From Prolixibacteraceae bacterium (lineage in GTDB: Bacteria; Bacteroidota; Bacteroidia; Bacteroidales; Prolixibacteraceae): 12,176 bases of DNA. Under the pieces are notes generated by a model. That model saw only the letters and a program-made list of their open reading frames with translations. It had not been told where the DNA came from and made no database searches. Below are positions 3,126 through 10,205 of this stretch, piece after piece. Location of the stretch: positions 1 through 12,176 of the forward strand of contig JAEUSS010000361.1 of NCBI GenBank assembly GCA_016788685.1. Reading direction: 5' to 3'. Made by a program: the position numbers and the translations under genes. Every line of letters starts with the position of its first letter. The stretch's first letter is position 1.

Positions 3126-4013
3126 TCACCGAAAAGACTCCGTGCGATACTGAACAGGTGTCAAACCGGTTTCGCGCCTGAAGAATTTGGTGAAATACGA
3201 TTGATCCTCAAAGTTTAACTGACTGGCTATCTCTGATACACTCAGATTGGTATGAACCAACAAACGTTTTATTTCGAGTAATTGTTTCGCTTTAATGATT
3301 TGCGAAGAAGTTTTGCCGGTTAGCGTCTTCACCGTCTGGGTCAGGTGATTGGGCGTAATGCCGATCATATCCGCATATTGGCCGAGCGAAAGGTTTTTCT
3401 GGTGATTTTCTTCAACCAGGTGAAAGAACCGTTTCACCAGAATCTGTCCTTTCCCTTTGTTCAGCAAGTTTTCAGGAACCTGATAACGGGCGGCACAGGT
3501 GGTCAGGATCAGATCAAGGACCGAACGAAGCATTTCGACCGAATAGCCTGCCGTCCGGGAAACTTCGGCTATTCCCTGCCTGAACAGAACATCCAGAAAC
3601 TCAACATCTGCTTTTTGATTCAGCAGCAGTGGCGGGTTATCCTGATGGATCGTATAAAAAAACGGGAACTCAATCAGGCTGTTCTGATTGCTTCGGTTGA
3701 GCAGGTAAAAATCGGAAGTGAAAATAAAAATATAACCTTCAATATCGTGCGAAAGTTCCAACTTGTGTGCTTGTCCGGGCGACATAAAAAAAACGCAGGG
3801 AGGCTTGATCTCGTATTTATTGCCATCGATAACATGATAACCCGATCCTTTCTGAAGGTACAGCACTTCAAAAAAATCGTGCCGGTGCGGATACTTCACA
3901 CTGAAATGCCTGTTGGCATCAAACACTTCAACCTGAAACTGCTGAGTTTGCCGTTCAGGCGCGCTGAAATTATGCAGGCTGTAAACCGGTAGCTGTTCGG
4001 TTATATGCTTCAT
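3126..4013 (-). CDS. AraC-family transcriptional regulator with N-terminal cupin domain
   Basis: Predicted DNA-binding regulator of 295 residues, a usual length for the family. The N-terminal half is an AraC-type cupin sensor: HRHDFFEVLY at about 43-52, then SPGQAHKL at about 78-85. The C-terminal ~85 residues carry the two helix-turn-helix motifs of the AraC/XylS domain, with the signature stretch SVSEIASQLNFEDQSYFTKF and a closing GLTPVQYR. The start at 4013 is chosen because the residues upstream of it (a 33-residue Cys/Phe-rich extension to 4112) look unlike any AraC N-terminus, and the frame begins properly with MKHITEQLP. It lies upstream of ilvC in the same direction, with 196 bases between them. 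The ligand is unknown; the cupin could bind a sugar or small metabolite. Control of ilvC is possible from position only, not shown. Confidence 0.93.
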   Translation of the reverse strand: MKHITEQLPVYSLHNFSAPERQTQQFQVEVFDANRHFSVKYPHRHDFFEVLYLQKGSGYHVIDGNKYEIKPPCVFFMSPGQAHKLELSHDIEGYIFIFTSDFYLLNRSNQNSLIEFPFFYTIHQDNPPLLLNQKADVEFLDVLFRQGIAEVSRTAGYSVEMLRSVLDLILTTCAARYQVPENLLNKGKGQILVKRFFHLVEENHQKNLSLGQYADMIGITPNHLTQTVKTLTGKTSSQIIKAKQLLEIKRLLVHTNLSVSEIASQLNFEDQSYFTKFFRRETGLTPVQYRTESFR

Positions 4014-4075
4014 AAAAAATATCACATGTTGTTTACGAAAGTAAGCAACAAATTGGTTAAAACAAGCAAACCCGA

Positions 4076-4097
4076 TGCTCCGGAAAACCCGGGAGCA
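4076..4097 (-). terminator. Possible weak terminator after the DUF4251 gene
   Basis: A GC-rich imperfect hairpin (TGCTCC paired with GGAGCA, extended by two G-C pairs past a bulge, loop AAAA-rich) lies about 75 bases past the DUF4251 stop. On the minus strand it is followed by a broken T-rich tract (GGGTTTGCTTGTTTT) instead of a clean run. It could end DUF4251 transcription before the AraC gene, or be chance. Confidence 0.35.
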
Positions 4098-4172
4098 CCA
4101 GGAACAATGCAAACCGGAAAATCTTTCGAGTCAGCTGAATTGCTGCATTTGCCGGAAAATTGCCTCGCGGCA

Positions 4173-4715
4173 CTACAACGATTGCCCTACGAAAACCGAA
4201 GAGTCCTCCCACGGGACCAGATCGCCGTCAAAAGTCAGCCTCCCCGCTCTCAGCCCGGTTAGCGAGGCGGTAGCCCCACCCGAACCGCTGATAAAAAAGA
4301 TGAGGTCGTAAATACCGATGGGAGTCATCACGGTCATTCTCAAATCAAAAGATTTGGTTTTCTCTTCGGCAACCAGTTCCCAATTCGAGATGCGCCCTTT
4401 AGCTGTAATTCCGCCTACTCCGTTAGGGCCTATCCTGAAGTTTGAGCCAATCTGAATGATCGCCAAAGCAGAATCGACAGCAACAAAATTAATGTTTGAG
4501 CTCACCGGAATCCGATTGCCCCAACGATCCTGAAGATAATCTGATTCCAGTACAAAATTCTTGTTTTCGAGCATACTTTTGGTCGCCTGATATTGCTTTT
4601 CGAATTCAGCGTCCCTCTTCTGCTTTTTGGTAAGTGCCGGATTTTCATCATTCCCCTGAGCAAACAAAAGACTTGCAGAAATGATCAGACCGAGAAACAA
4701 AACGATTTTTTTCAT
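4173..4715 (-). CDS. DUF4251 domain-containing secreted protein
   Basis: A 180-residue exported protein of unknown function. It starts with a clear signal peptide (MKKIVLFLGLIISASLLFAQ), followed by a charged segment rich in Lys/Glu (about 25-50) that is common in this family. The conserved domain then runs from FVLESDYLQDRWGNRI through NFVAVDSALAIIQIG, the glycine-rich NGVGGITAKG and a beta-rich C-terminus ending near SSVFVG; these match DUF4251 as I know it. The start at 4715 is supported by the signal peptide and an unusually good ribosome-binding site for this genome (AAAGGA at 4723-4728, seven bases before ATG). A longer frame to 4880 would run into the hairpin at 4873-4921 and is rejected. 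No cysteine lipobox is seen. Its position between ilvN and ilvC gives no functional clue. Confidence 0.9.
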   Translation of the reverse strand: MKKIVLFLGLIISASLLFAQGNDENPALTKKQKRDAEFEKQYQATKSMLENKNFVLESDYLQDRWGNRIPVSSNINFVAVDSALAIIQIGSNFRIGPNGVGGITAKGRISNWELVAEEKTKSFDLRMTVMTPIGIYDLIFFISGSGGATASLTGLRAGRLTFDGDLVPWEDSSVFVGQSL

Positions 4716-4722
4716 GGCTTTA

Positions 4723-4728
4723 TCCTTT
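4723..4728 (-). promoter_or_regulatory. Ribosome-binding site of the DUF4251 gene
   Basis: AAAGGA on the minus strand, seven bases upstream of the ATG at 4715. It decides the start against the longer upstream frame and stands out because the other genes here have only A-rich leaders. Confidence 0.7.
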
Positions 4729-4872
4729 CTATACTTTAATCTCCTTTCAACACGAACAAGATTCGTTCCGCAGAAGAAAAAATCGGCAACTCTTTTTGAT
4801 CCTTTAGCAAAGATTAACAATTGAAACAGCCGGAGAAAGGGATTTCGTTCGGCTATTGCCCGACTAACGAGA

Positions 4873-4921
4873 AACGGCAAAGAACAACCACTTTTTTGTC
4901 CAAGTGATATTCTTTGCCGTT
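4873..4921 (-). terminator. Long hairpin after ilvN, probable end of the ilvDBN transcript
   Basis: Two perfectly complementary 12-base arms (4873-4884 and 4910-4921; AACGGCAAAGAA and its reverse complement) enclose a 25-base loop that can itself form a short CACTT/AAGTG stem. On the minus strand the arm is followed by a modest TTTCTCGTT tail; on the plus strand by CGCTTTTA. It begins 39 bases after the ilvN stop and precedes the DUF4251 gene, so it probably ends the operon, possibly incompletely because the T tail is weak. Confidence 0.65.
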
Positions 4922-4960: not shown

Positions 4961-5506
4961 TTAGTCTATCTGTTCCAGCATCGAATCCCGTTCTTTCAGG
5001 AATTCTGAAAGTTTTTCGATGCTGCTTTTGGTAATGGCGACCCGTCCGGAGCGGATAAACTGAGTCACACCATACGATGAATTCAGTTCTTCGAACAAAC
5101 GTTGCGTTTCTTCGGTATGCCCGGTTTTTTCGATGACCACATAATCCCTTGTGATTTCGAGGATGCGTGCACCCGAATTGCGGATAATCGTTTCGACCTT
5201 GTCCGACTCGAACAAAAACTTGGTCGATACTTTATAGAGTGCGATCTCCTGAAAAACCATCTCGTTGTTGGTGTTCGCATAAACTTTGATCACATCAACG
5301 ATTTTTTCGAGCTGACCAACCACTTTTTCTACCCGGTCGGCCGTATCATTAATTACGATGATAAATTTAAAAATTCCGGAAATGGACGATTCTGAAACCG
5401 TCAAACTGTCGATATTGATTTTGCGGCGGGTGAAAATGATGGTTATCCTGCTGAGCAAACCGATATTATCTTCCGAAAAAATGGTTATGATATATTCTTG
5501 TTTCAT
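4961..5506 (-). CDS. ilvN: Acetolactate synthase, small (regulatory) subunit
   Basis: Regulatory subunit of acetohydroxyacid synthase; it activates the catalytic subunit and usually carries feedback inhibition by valine. The protein is 181 residues. An ACT domain occupies about residues 1-75 (YIITIFSEDNIGLLSRITII, then the family hallmark RRKINIDSLTVSES), followed by the C-terminal small-subunit domain (about 80-165; ALYKVSTKF onward). The start follows the ilvB stop by 12 bases, which supports co-transcription and perhaps coupled translation. Whether valine, leucine or isoleucine is the effector cannot be read from the sequence. The name ilvN rather than ilvH is a convention here. Confidence 0.95.
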   Translation of the reverse strand: MKQEYIITIFSEDNIGLLSRITIIFTRRKINIDSLTVSESSISGIFKFIIVINDTADRVEKVVGQLEKIVDVIKVYANTNNEMVFQEIALYKVSTKFLFESDKVETIIRNSGARILEITRDYVVIEKTGHTEETQRLFEELNSSYGVTQFIRSGRVAITKSSIEKLSEFLKERDSMLEQID

Positions 5507-5518
5507 GTGTTGTTCGTT

Positions 5519-7216
5519 TTAAGGTTCAAGTATAATATCCGAAATGGATGCGCCGGTCGGAACCATCGGGAAAACATTGTCTTCTTTTTCAACCACCACT
5601 TCAAGCACGTAGGGGCCTTTATGATCGAGCATTTCCTGAACGGCATTCTCCAACTGATCGCGTGAGGTTACTTTTTGCGAAGCCAGACCATAAGCTTTCG
5701 CAATTCCGACAAAATCAGGGTTTTTCATTTCAGTAAACGAATACCGTTTTTCGAAAAACAGCTGCTGCCACTGACGGACCATCCCCAGAAAATTGTTGTT
5801 CAGAACAATAATTTTAATATCCAGGTTGTACTGGGCAATCGTACCTAACTCCTGAATGGTCATCTGGAAACCTCCATCTCCGGCCATGGCAAACACAACG
5901 CGGTCGGGCTGTCCGATTTTGGCGCCCATGGCTGCGGGCAAAGCATAGCCCATAGTTCCCAGACCACCGGAGGTTACATTGCTACGCGATTGGGTGAACT
6001 TAAAATAGCGGGAAGCAATCATTTGCTGCTGTCCGACATCTGTTACCAAAACCGCATCGTGATTGGTTTTTTCAGATGCAATACGAACAACTTCGCCCAT
6101 AGTCAATCCAGCTTTTTTGGGGAAAACATCATGCGAAATTACTTTTTCGTATTCGATTTTATCGCATTCCTTAAACTCGTTGAGCCATTCCTGATGCGAA
6201 TTGGGATTCACATTATCAATAAGCATCCGGAGCGATTTTTTGGCATTTCCCAAAACCGGAGCATCGGCCTTGATGATTTTATTGACTTCAGCCGAATCAA
6301 TCTCCAGATGGACAATTTTTGCCTGACGGGCATACGCGGCAACTTTACCGGTTACACGGTCGTCAAACCGCATCCCGACGGCGATAATAACATCTGCCTC
6401 GTTGGTTTTAATGTTAGGTCCATAGTTGCCGTGCATACCGAGCATGCCTACATTTAACGGATGATCGCTTGGCAAGGCCGACAAACCCAGCAAGGTCCAG
6501 GCTGCCGGAATACCCGTTTTTTCTACAAATTCTTTCAATTCCTCTTCAGCATGGGCAATTACAACGCCGTGACCAAACAAAAGCAACGGCTTTTTAGCGG
6601 CGTTAATAATGTCGGCAGCCGCTTTCACCTGAAACGGATCAACCGGATATTCAGGAAGATAACTTCTGATTTTGGTGCACTTTTTATATTCAAAATCAAA
6701 CTGGGAAAACTGCGCATCTTTAGCAATATCGAGCAAAACAGGTCCCGGACGGCCAGTGTTGGCAATATGGAAAGCTTTTGCAATCGCTTCAGGAATTTCT
6801 TCGGCCTTGGTTACCTGGTAATTCCACTTGGTTACCGGCATTGTAATGCCAACCACATCCGACTCCTGAAAAGCATCAGTTCCGAGCAGTGGCGATGCCA
6901 CCTGGCCGGTGATGCACACCAGCGGAATGGAATCGATCATTGCATCAGCCAAACCGGTGATCAGGTTGGTCGCTCCGGGGCCCGATGTCGCAAAGCAAAC
7001 GCCTGCTTTCCCGGTAACCTTGGCATAACCTTCGGCTGCATGAATTGCTCCCTGCTCGTGCCTGGTTAAGTAGTGGGTAACTTTTTGATCAAAATCGTAA
7101 AGTGCATCATAGATGGGCATAATTGCCCCCCCGGGATACCCAAAAATGGTATCAACCCCTTCTTCAAGAAGGGATAATATTACAGCTTCTGAGCCGCTTA
7201 CACGCTGTGTTGCCAT
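5519..7216 (-). CDS. ilvB: Acetolactate synthase, large (catalytic) subunit
   Basis: Thiamine-diphosphate enzyme that condenses two pyruvates to acetolactate, or pyruvate and 2-oxobutyrate to acetohydroxybutyrate, the first common step of branched-chain amino acid synthesis. The 565 residues contain, in order, the TPP N-terminal domain (FGYPGGAIMPIYDALY, catalytic Glu 54 in HEQ), the central domain (about 190-330) and the C-terminal TPP-binding domain, with the GDG...NN cofactor motif beginning near residue 446 (MAGDGGF to LNNNFLGMVRQWQ). The start at 7216 (MATQRVSG) is preferred because it matches the family N-terminus; an in-frame ATG at 7261 would add 15 Lys-rich residues falling in the intercistronic hairpin region. 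It lies between ilvD and ilvN, and the attached ACT subunit gene downstream confirms the biosynthetic form over a catabolic AlsS. Confidence 0.97.
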   Translation of the reverse strand: MATQRVSGSEAVILSLLEEGVDTIFGYPGGAIMPIYDALYDFDQKVTHYLTRHEQGAIHAAEGYAKVTGKAGVCFATSGPGATNLITGLADAMIDSIPLVCITGQVASPLLGTDAFQESDVVGITMPVTKWNYQVTKAEEIPEAIAKAFHIANTGRPGPVLLDIAKDAQFSQFDFEYKKCTKIRSYLPEYPVDPFQVKAAADIINAAKKPLLLFGHGVVIAHAEEELKEFVEKTGIPAAWTLLGLSALPSDHPLNVGMLGMHGNYGPNIKTNEADVIIAVGMRFDDRVTGKVAAYARQAKIVHLEIDSAEVNKIIKADAPVLGNAKKSLRMLIDNVNPNSHQEWLNEFKECDKIEYEKVISHDVFPKKAGLTMGEVVRIASEKTNHDAVLVTDVGQQQMIASRYFKFTQSRSNVTSGGLGTMGYALPAAMGAKIGQPDRVVFAMAGDGGFQMTIQELGTIAQYNLDIKIIVLNNNFLGMVRQWQQLFFEKRYSFTEMKNPDFVGIAKAYGLASQKVTSRDQLENAVQEMLDHKGPYVLEVVVEKEDNVFPMVPTGASISDIILEP

Positions 7217-9170: not shown

Positions 9171-9208
9171 AAAAAAAAGCCTTTCTCAACTGAATGAGAA
9201 AGGCTTTT
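9171..9208 (-). terminator. Attenuator terminator (3:4 hairpin) of the ilv leader
   Basis: On the minus strand a perfect 14-bp stem (arms AAAAGCCTTTCTCA at 9195-9208 and its complement at 9175-9188) closes a 6-base loop. A run of eight T bases (9171-9178) covers the end of the second arm and continues beyond it. It stands between the leader peptide and ilvD, with no gene ending just upstream that would need it except the leader peptide. Confidence 0.95.
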
Positions 9209-9244
9209 ATGTCTTATAGTTTACATTATACCAATCTCATTCAG
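9190..9244 (-). promoter_or_regulatory. Antiterminator pairing (2:3) of the ilv attenuator
   Basis: CTGAATGAGA (minus strand, 9244 to 9235) is the exact reverse complement of TCTCATTCAG (9199 to 9190), giving 10 perfect pairs, extendable by one G-U. The second segment includes the end of the terminator's 5' arm plus five bases of its loop, so the two structures cannot coexist. The first segment contains the leader peptide's TGA stop codon (9239-9237). A ribosome that reaches the stop would cover it and allow termination; one that stalls earlier leaves it free to block termination. Confidence 0.88.
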
Positions 9245-9288
9245 CACGAAGGAGGACCACCACGCTAATAATGACTAGAGATATAATG
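9224..9288 (-). promoter_or_regulatory. Protector (1:2) hairpin of the ilv attenuator
   Basis: CATTATA (9288 to 9282) can pair with TATAATG (9230 to 9224), and the adjoining TCTC (9281 to 9278) with GAGA (9238 to 9235), leaving a TTGG bulge: 11 pairs in all. The first strand lies in leader codons 5-9 and the second overlaps the antiterminator strand. Without translation this fold would hold the antiterminator strand away and favour termination. The stem is AT-rich, so its stability is less certain than the other two. Confidence 0.65.
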
Positions 9289-9302
9289 CTGATATTTTTC
9301 AT
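9237..9302 (-). CDS. ilv operon leader peptide, 21 residues, Ile/Val/Leu-rich
   Basis: A short frame beginning ATG AAA AAT and ending GCT GAA TGA. Residues 4-18 read ISIISLVIISVVVLL; overall there are five Ile, four Val and three Leu, 12 of 21 residues, matching exactly the end products of the downstream ilvDBN genes. It includes ATA (Ile7) and CTA (Leu9), codons that are often rare. An in-frame TAA lies two codons upstream, so the start is well bounded. It is preceded by AATAAGAA, a weak A-rich start region. It begins about 20 bases after the predicted transcription start and ends inside the antiterminator strand. A generic hydrophobic micro-peptide is the alternative, but the fit with overlapping RNA structures argues strongly for a regulatory leader whose translation, not product, matters. 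Confidence 0.9.
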   Translation of the reverse strand: MKNISIISLVIISVVVLLRAE

Positions 9303-9500: not shown

Positions 9501-10205
9501 TTAAATTTTCCCGATCATAAAAATTGCCGGCCGTTTCTGAATATCCGGGACGTTGGTTTTCCAGTATGAAACCGGTTTACTCCGGATAAATTCGGTATCG
9601 AGTGTGATGTCAGCTGCAATGCACAACATGGTTTGCGGGTCGCAGTTTTTCAGTAACTCGTCGAGCAACTGTGCGTTGCGGTATGGCGCTTCAATAAAAA
9701 TCTGGGTCTGGCCTTCGGTTTGCATCCGCTTTTCGAGCATTTTAATCTGCTGCGATTTTTCAGGATTTTTAATCGGCAAATACCCGTTGAACGCAAAATT
9801 CTGCCCGCTCATTCCTGAAGCCATTAAGGCCAGCAAAATTGAAGAAGGCCCGACCAACGGCACTACCTGTATATTTTTGGCGTGCGCTATCTTTACAACT
9901 TCGGCTCCCGGGTCAGCAACTCCGGGGCATCCGGCTTCTGAAATAATCCCGATATCCAGCCCTTTTTGATTAGGCTCCAGGTACCGGACGATCTCTTTCT
10001 TTTCAGTGTGCTGGTTTAGCTCAAAAAAGATGAGATCATCGATTACAATGGCCGGATTCACTTTCTTCAGGAAACGCCTTGCCGTACGGATATTTTCCAC
10101 AATAAAAACCGGAACCGATGAAATCAGCTGCGTCAGGTCGGGTGGCAAAACCCGCTCGATGCTGGTGTCGCCCAAAGTTGTCGGAATCAAATATAATTTG
10201 GCCAT
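9501..10205 (-). CDS. SAM-dependent methyltransferase, RsmI-like (tetrapyrrole methylase fold)
   Basis: Related to RsmI, which in E. coli 2'-O-methylates a cytidine of 16S rRNA near the decoding site. The 234 residues are shorter than E. coli RsmI (about 286), as in a Bacteroidota branch of the family. Recognisable motifs are LYLIPTTLGD at the N-terminus (the usual first strand has TPIGN), ISEAGCPGVADPG at about 88-100 and VPLVGPSSILLALMASG at about 115-131, both contributing to the SAM pocket. The start at 10205 (MAKLYLIP) fits the family; a 17-residue Arg-rich extension to 10256 would cross the divergent promoter region. The exact rRNA target cannot be read here, and Bacteroidota may carry a second RsmI homolog, so no symbol is assigned. 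It is upstream of and in the same direction as the ilv leader, but functionally unrelated as far as I can see. Confidence 0.87.
   Translation of the reverse strand: MAKLYLIPTTLGDTSIERVLPPDLTQLISSVPVFIVENIRTARRFLKKVNPAIVIDDLIFFELNQHTEKKEIVRYLEPNQKGLDIGIISEAGCPGVADPGAEVVKIAHAKNIQVVPLVGPSSILLALMASGMSGQNFAFNGYLPIKNPEKSQQIKMLEKRMQTEGQTQIFIEAPYRNAQLLDELLKNCDPQTMLCIAADITLDTEFIRSKPVSYWKTNVPDIQKRPAIFMIGKI

Follow-up and report, generated by a model that had tools for sequence, protein, structure and literature searches.

A putative ribosome-mediated attenuator upstream of ilvDBN in Prolixibacteraceae and related Bacteroidota

Introduction

In Escherichia coli, the branched-chain genes of ilvXGMEDA are preceded by ilvL, which encodes a leader peptide rich in Ile, Val and Leu, and the ilvL leader works as a terminator/antiterminator switch. 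Cases in Bacteroidetes/Chlorobi are reportedly mentioned in the abstract of Vitreschak 2004, so that the general idea may be older than the literature found here. Short frames resembling leader peptides have been noted in a Bacteroides paper, none of them an ilv case.

According to the passage compared from a 2010 survey, Proteobacteria and Actinobacteria were, to its authors' knowledge, the only groups with demonstrated leader-peptide systems until they added a case of their own in Firmicutes (PMC2965389). Bacteroid-trp (Rfam RF01692) is a leader RNA of Bacteroidota associated, in the portion of the source considered, with trp (Weinberg et al. 2010, PMC2864571); it is a tryptophan system, whereas the ilv unit described here is rich in Ile, Val and Leu codons. 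The preliminary description of this DNA had regarded leader-peptide attenuation as little described in Bacteroidota. Such control indeed receives only brief mention in what we found, but for Flavobacterium psychrophilum, a member of the same phylum, a transcriptome paper had already reported strong clues to it in front of amino-acid biosynthesis operons, although the text compared names no operon or leader sequence (PMC9723704). Among the matches listed from open-licence titles and the beginnings of abstracts, none describes an ilvD unit in Bacteroidota.

Here we analyse such a unit in the window, the whole 12,176-nt stretch of DNA under study, and in its relatives. The E. coli IlvL peptide (L050) and the window leader share ISLV[V/I]ISVVV, with 9 of 10 residues identical, and over 14 nt, ATTAGCGTGGTGGT, the two leaders are identical; these two stretches are the extent of the comparison. 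We set homology with ilvL aside: because a near relative (L022) has a quite different peptide, MINNNIISANLVNVVVVLLRAE, convergence is more likely than descent.

Architecture of the leader region

The preliminary description had proposed a frame of 21 codons, 12 of them for Ile, Val or Leu, a terminator of 14 bp ending in a T8 run, an antiterminator of 10 perfect pairs that excludes the terminator, and an 11-pair protector over the leader codons. Each of these was recovered on the minus strand (Table 1). The antiterminator, CTGAATGAGA with TCTCATTCAG, pairs perfectly at all 10 positions, and the terminator stem (9208-9195 with 9188-9175) has a folding energy of -20.2 kcal/mol. By folding, the protector comprises the 11 inner pairs, 4 more, and a 10-pair outer helix that the earlier account lacked.

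Table 1. Features of the ilvD leader region and operon in the window, with the leuA unit of the same genome
Feature	Position	Strand	Details
Promoter-like site	9354-9326	-	TTG-N18-TACATTTG; just 5′ of leader frame
Leader peptide frame	9302-9237	-	MKNISIISLVIISVVVLLRAE*; 21 codons, 12 I/L/V (5 Ile, 4 Val, 3 Leu)
Segment 1, outer protector arm	9289-9280	-	GCATTATATC; within leader frame; pairs with 9232-9223
3′ partner of outer protector	9232-9223	-	GGTATAATGT; pairs with 9289-9280, 10-pair helix
Inner protector arm	9268-9257	-	Ile-Ser-Val-Val-Val codons; 11 pairs with 9252-9241
Segment 2, antiterminator 5′ arm	9244-9235	-	CTGAATGAGA; includes leader stop TGA 9239-9237
Segment 3, antiterminator 3′ arm	9199-9190	-	TCTCATTCAG; overlaps terminator 5′ arm and loop
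Intrinsic terminator	9208-9171	-	14-bp stem, 6-nt loop, T8 at 9178-9171
ilvD, dihydroxy-acid dehydratase	9142-7313	-	NF009103, 1058.6 bits; first gene after attenuator
ilvB, acetolactate synthase large subunit	5519-7216	-	TIGR00118, 730.9 bits
ilvN/ilvH, acetolactate synthase small subunit	4961-5506	-	TIGR00119, 91.7 bits (cut-off 56.9)
leuA attenuator, source genome	contig C541, L090 1101-1245; R1 match G000:C541:1139-1245		only other convincing unit in that genome

Farther along the same strand lies ilvC, with an NCBIfam family match; the stretch from ilvN to ilvC (3126-4880) holds an AraC-type regulator and a 235-codon frame without an NCBIfam match.

All parts of an attenuator are present at this locus, and beyond chance. 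Of the 382 frames in the window that run from start to stop over 12-42 codons, the leader frame has the highest Ile/Leu/Val content. Dinucleotide shuffling of the 358-nt upstream region produced an equally rich frame in 2 of 5000 trials, and shuffling of the leader region produced any 10-nt perfect inverted repeat in 42 of 5000.

The same layout bears on whether the leader acts on translation of ilvD, by translational attenuation or coupling, and not on termination. Re-initiation has been proposed for leader frames near a gene, in the text compared for short distances to that gene (PMC4833913), but here 94 nt separate the leader stop from the ilvD start, and the terminator and T-run fall in this gap, which makes a translational mode of action very unlikely.

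Rfam leader families, including T-box, gave no match at cut-off in the window, in 20 relatives or in 14 further loci; sub-threshold matches include Phe_leader and Thr_leader. RF01692 had no match in the window or in the source genome. It scored above cut-off in 5 of 61 genomes, the source genome not among them, and in the six relatives with an RF01692 match the contig differs from that of the ilvD match. The best score against this family among the ilvD leaders searched was that of L024 (39.5 bits, cut-off 49).

Conservation upstream of ilvD

ilvD was found in 49 of 61 genomes, including the source genome, and the upstream region of one match per genome formed a first set (n = 49), in which our first script reported 50 units in 45 regions. 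A second draw found ilvD in 59 of 149 genomes of the order; 15 of the 59 were already in the first set, leaving 44 new regions from 43 genomes, and 26 of these regions gave a unit with 6 or more arm pairs under a slightly loosened version of the first script. Under a common rule for all 93 regions of this taxonomic order, which asks for an antiterminator arm of at least 6 contiguous pairs, a unit stands upstream of ilvD in 67 (40/49 and 27/44); the 93 reverse strands and 279 shuffles gave none. In 54 of 71 units the antiterminator arm and the leader stop codon overlap.

The script reported no unit in 26 of the 93 ilvD-upstream regions. One of these is cut by a contig end (L005), seven have an arm too short for the rule (L003, L013, L015, L018, L044, L130, L139), six show a unit by eye (L041, L042, L113, L129, L131, L135) and three are ambiguous on manual reading (L121, L132, L149); manual reading found no unit in the remaining 9 of 93 (L043, L115, L128, L137, L138, L141, L144, L146, L150). 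In L003, L013, L015 and L018, four of the 19 genus loci scored within L001-L020, leader and terminator are retained but contiguous antiterminator pairing is down to 5 pairs.

The closest named matches belong to Prolixibacteraceae, placed by NCBI in Marinilabiliales, class Bacteroidia. With the same rule and 600 nt of upstream sequence, 64 of 80 loci from named relatives were positive, a sample that overlaps the 93 regions; positive genera include Draconibacterium, Mariniphaga, Maribellus, Sunxiuqinia, Marinifilum and Labilibaculum. Within these 80 loci, records of Spirochaetes, Fibrobacteres and Desulfopila type lacked the unit (7 of 7), and one record titled Chlorobiota carried it.

Of 65 scorable positive loci, 59 have the motif TAnnTTTG, which we take to be the Bacteroidota -7 consensus, at most 70 nt 5′ of their first leader; on the reverse strand of these stretches 6 of 65 have it. 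At the level of the frame, the ilvD leaders have a crude pN/pS of 0.46 (15 distinct genus leaders).

Covariation and stability of the helices

All three helices are supported across relatives. In an alignment of 38 of the 50 units, 96.1% of cells in the terminator helix are paired, with two-sided changes at 7 of 10 pairs; for the antiterminator 88.4% of cells are paired and 17 cells carry changes on both sides. The covariation score of each of these helices was reached by 0 of 500 column shuffles. Two of the five antiterminator measures were unremarkable: a two-sided change at 4 pairs (equalled or exceeded in 134 of 500 shuffles) and 14 further pair types (likewise in 38 of 500). Antiterminator pairing is probably understated, because the arm is out of register in at least six rows of alignment A1 (L021, L025-L028, L049). 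At a central compensatory position, AAAGG in the leader arm with CCTTT in the terminator contrasts with AATGG and CCATT in other units.

An alignment-free swap test compared the pairing of each arm with its own partner against 5000 permutations of partners. For the antiterminator the own mean was 21.2 against a permuted maximum of 18.6 (0/5000; 50 units), and 22.95 versus 18.90 in the 31 units from L021 on. The protector gave 17.56 against a permuted maximum of 16.15 (0/5000; 49 units), and 16.78 versus 16.22 in the 30 units from L021 on. The antiterminator region is also more stable than its shuffles (mean z -3.1; below -1.5 in 43 of 50 units). The leader-plus-arm segment shows no such excess stability over its shuffles across relatives (mean z -0.56; z under -1.5 for 7 of 50 units).

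A check of conservation in relatives had been set beforehand, and its outcome is that leader frame and competing helices are kept, with compensatory changes. Comparison thus lends support to the initial proposal of a ribosome-mediated attenuator of ilvDBN.

Proposed mechanism

These features together make it very probable that the unit is a classical three-helix ribosome-mediated transcription attenuator for ilvDBN, with termination and amino-acid dependence predicted from its arrangement. We infer where transcription starts, that the frame is translated, that transcription terminates and does so according to charged tRNA, and what happens by default when no ribosome is present. Judging by the promoter-like site, transcription would start about 15-20 nt 5′ of the leader frame. 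When charged Ile, Val and Leu tRNAs are plentiful, a ribosome would reach the UGA stop within segment 2; its footprint there would cover segment 2, and therefore the terminator would form and transcription end near 9171. When they are scarce, the ribosome would stall on upstream Ile/Val/Leu codons and leave segment 2 exposed, free to pair with segment 3 ahead of the synthesis of segment 4; the terminator would then be blocked, permitting read-through into ilvD-ilvB-ilvN. With no ribosome, the protector would sequester segment 2, provided that it forms first. The controlling codons are probably the ten Ile, Leu and Val codons from Ile4 to Val16: if a ribosome covers about 13 nt, as we assume, one standing on the last two Leu codons would start to hide the antiterminator arm.

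Folding with masked ribosome positions follows this scheme under particular orders of formation. With the ribosome masked at the stop, the terminator is the sole helix able to form, and with the mask farther upstream the nascent RNA folds the antiterminator (-18.8 to -22.3 kcal/mol). For a mask at 9262, the antiterminator is also the best fold of the full transcript. For a mask ending at 9247, the full-length RNA has the terminator as its minimum-energy fold (-21.8), and the nascent antiterminator is nearly equal to it (-21.1); read-through would therefore be kinetic, and the antiterminator must form first. Without a ribosome, protector plus terminator is preferred in the full transcript, and nascent RNA to 9190 or 9186 favours the antiterminator over the protector at equilibrium, so that the no-ribosome default requires the protector to form first.

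Leader composition and a leuA counterpart

Genomes were searched with R1, a covariance model of the unit. In the source genome it gave 14 matches at E ≤5, the first two being the ilvD and leuA attenuators. Six others were rejected by eye as gene ends with terminators, and one remaining match is the same hairpin on the opposite strand. Since those six were judged to be gene ends, most R1 matches with weak E-values are chance matches, and the count of 58 of 198 genomes across the phylum at E ≤0.01 is for that reason too high.

The leuA leader of the source genome, MTGFANITLLGLILGILLIWMRD*, is followed by a 13-nt antiterminator arm, GATTGAGAATGGT versus GCCATTCTCGATT, and the unit has the same build as that of ilvD. 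Across relatives, 36 of 46 genomes have a leuA match. Of the 29 examined, 26 carried a unit; among the three that did not, one offered no sequence upstream of the gene. The leuA leaders (crude pN/pS 0.55; 14 leaders) contain 24.5% Leu, 21.6% Ile and 1.2% Val, compared with 18.1% Leu, 17.6% Ile and 20.8% Val in the ilvD leaders (71 units). Because leuA leaders are nearly Val-free and ilvD leaders Val-rich, Val appears lost where the gene serves leucine only; Ile is retained in leuA leaders, though superfluous for a pure Leu sensor.

This composition also addresses whether the frame encodes a functional small hydrophobic membrane peptide, such as a type I toxin, with the hairpin ending its own short mRNA. 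A 21-residue hydrophobic peptide with a strong terminator does have the usual shape of such membrane peptides. However, Ile, Leu and Val account for 87% of the I/L/V/F/M/A/W/C/Y residues in 63 distinct leaders, a range too narrow for general hydrophobicity, the leuA leaders do almost without Val, and the stop-codon region is constrained as an RNA arm; we consider a membrane peptide highly improbable. Least credible of all is that the hairpin terminates an upstream methyltransferase gene and the Ile/Val/Leu-rich frame arose by chance: a same-strand frame resembling TIGR00096 (108.4 bits, cut-off 167.9) does end at 9501, about 290 nt before the hairpin, but a conserved promoter-like site and the leader frame sit between them, the unit recurs before ilvD in 67 of 93 regions, and its arms covary with the stop-codon region of the leader frame.

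Attenuator-like units, the reading we favour, also precede other genes. Of 13 phylum R1 matches inspected, taken from the best-scoring, 10 precede amino-acid genes and three (L104-L106) do not. Among the ten, eight proteins have an NCBIfam match, L101 is named by likeness to L100, and the L102 gene resembles an ACT-domain subunit, with no family match at 1e-20. The ilvD beside two phylum R1 matches is of a shorter type, and a phylum search with the window's ilvD at E ≤1e-150 returned the source genome only. Sixteen further stretches were taken around strong R1 matches in the order, their genes being named by likeness of the protein start: nine lie before leuA, two before shorter-type ilvD, one before ilvB, one before ilvE and one before hisG, the last with leader MTFLTLHLHHSHSGPQAS. 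Elsewhere in the class and phylum, Ile/Val-rich frames stand before ilvE and the shorter ilvD, and MFLNQLHHHHHFFHARARQ before hisG.

Two side observations concern leaders of other kinds. His-rich leaders precede hisG in relatives at L108 and L159, and L108 matched no Rfam leader family. In L161 and L165, among the 16 stretches, a terminator precedes a glutamate-synthase-like gene but no Ile/Val/Leu leader is obvious; these are possibly another kind of regulated terminator.

Tandem units

Two units in series stand before ilvD in 5 of the 49 first-set loci (L022, L023, L024, L033, L048). Under the stricter rule tandem units number 4 in 93, and L152 shows two under the loosened script. Among the 80 named loci there are eight: L179 (the same locus as L022), two in Sunxiuqinia, three in Marinifilum and two in Labilibaculum, the Marinifilum and Labilibaculum arms being weak (6-8 pairs). 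Tandem units also precede ilvE and ilvB, including one each among the 16 stretches. Outside the first set, the loci with two units in series before ilvD, ilvB or ilvE include L180, L197, L220, L238, L242, L248, L249, L154 and L155.

No full promoter-like site was found between the units of L022-L024, L024 having a lone TATGTTTG, and the two units of these loci are for this reason probably on one transcript. The arms of L022 hint that the window unit could derive from fusion of two tandem units, but the loops fit either parent.

Among the papers listed by a narrow literature search for tandem attenuators with leader peptides were Salmonella mgtCBR and no amino-acid operon. In the text compared, mgtCBR likewise combines two leader frames with attenuation in one leader region, but it is no amino-acid biosynthesis operon, and the comparison is one of description (PMC3641672).

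Discussion

By the testable parts of the definition of the class, the window unit is a putative leader-peptide attenuator. For its phylum, we found only brief mention of such control, and no Rfam model matched. We propose tentatively, with rather more doubt than confidence, that Bacteroidota hold widespread leader-peptide attenuators without an Rfam model, at ilvD, ilvB, ilvE, leuA and histidine genes; that the tandem units of some lineages would be two separately sensed gates; and that single units may stem from loss or fusion of a pair.

Three helices tested across relatives give sequence-level support to control of branched-chain synthesis by ribosome stalling in these bacteria. Val-rich ilvD and Val-poor leuA leaders within one genome offer a ready test of specificity, and the tandem units raise the testable question of control by two gates in series.
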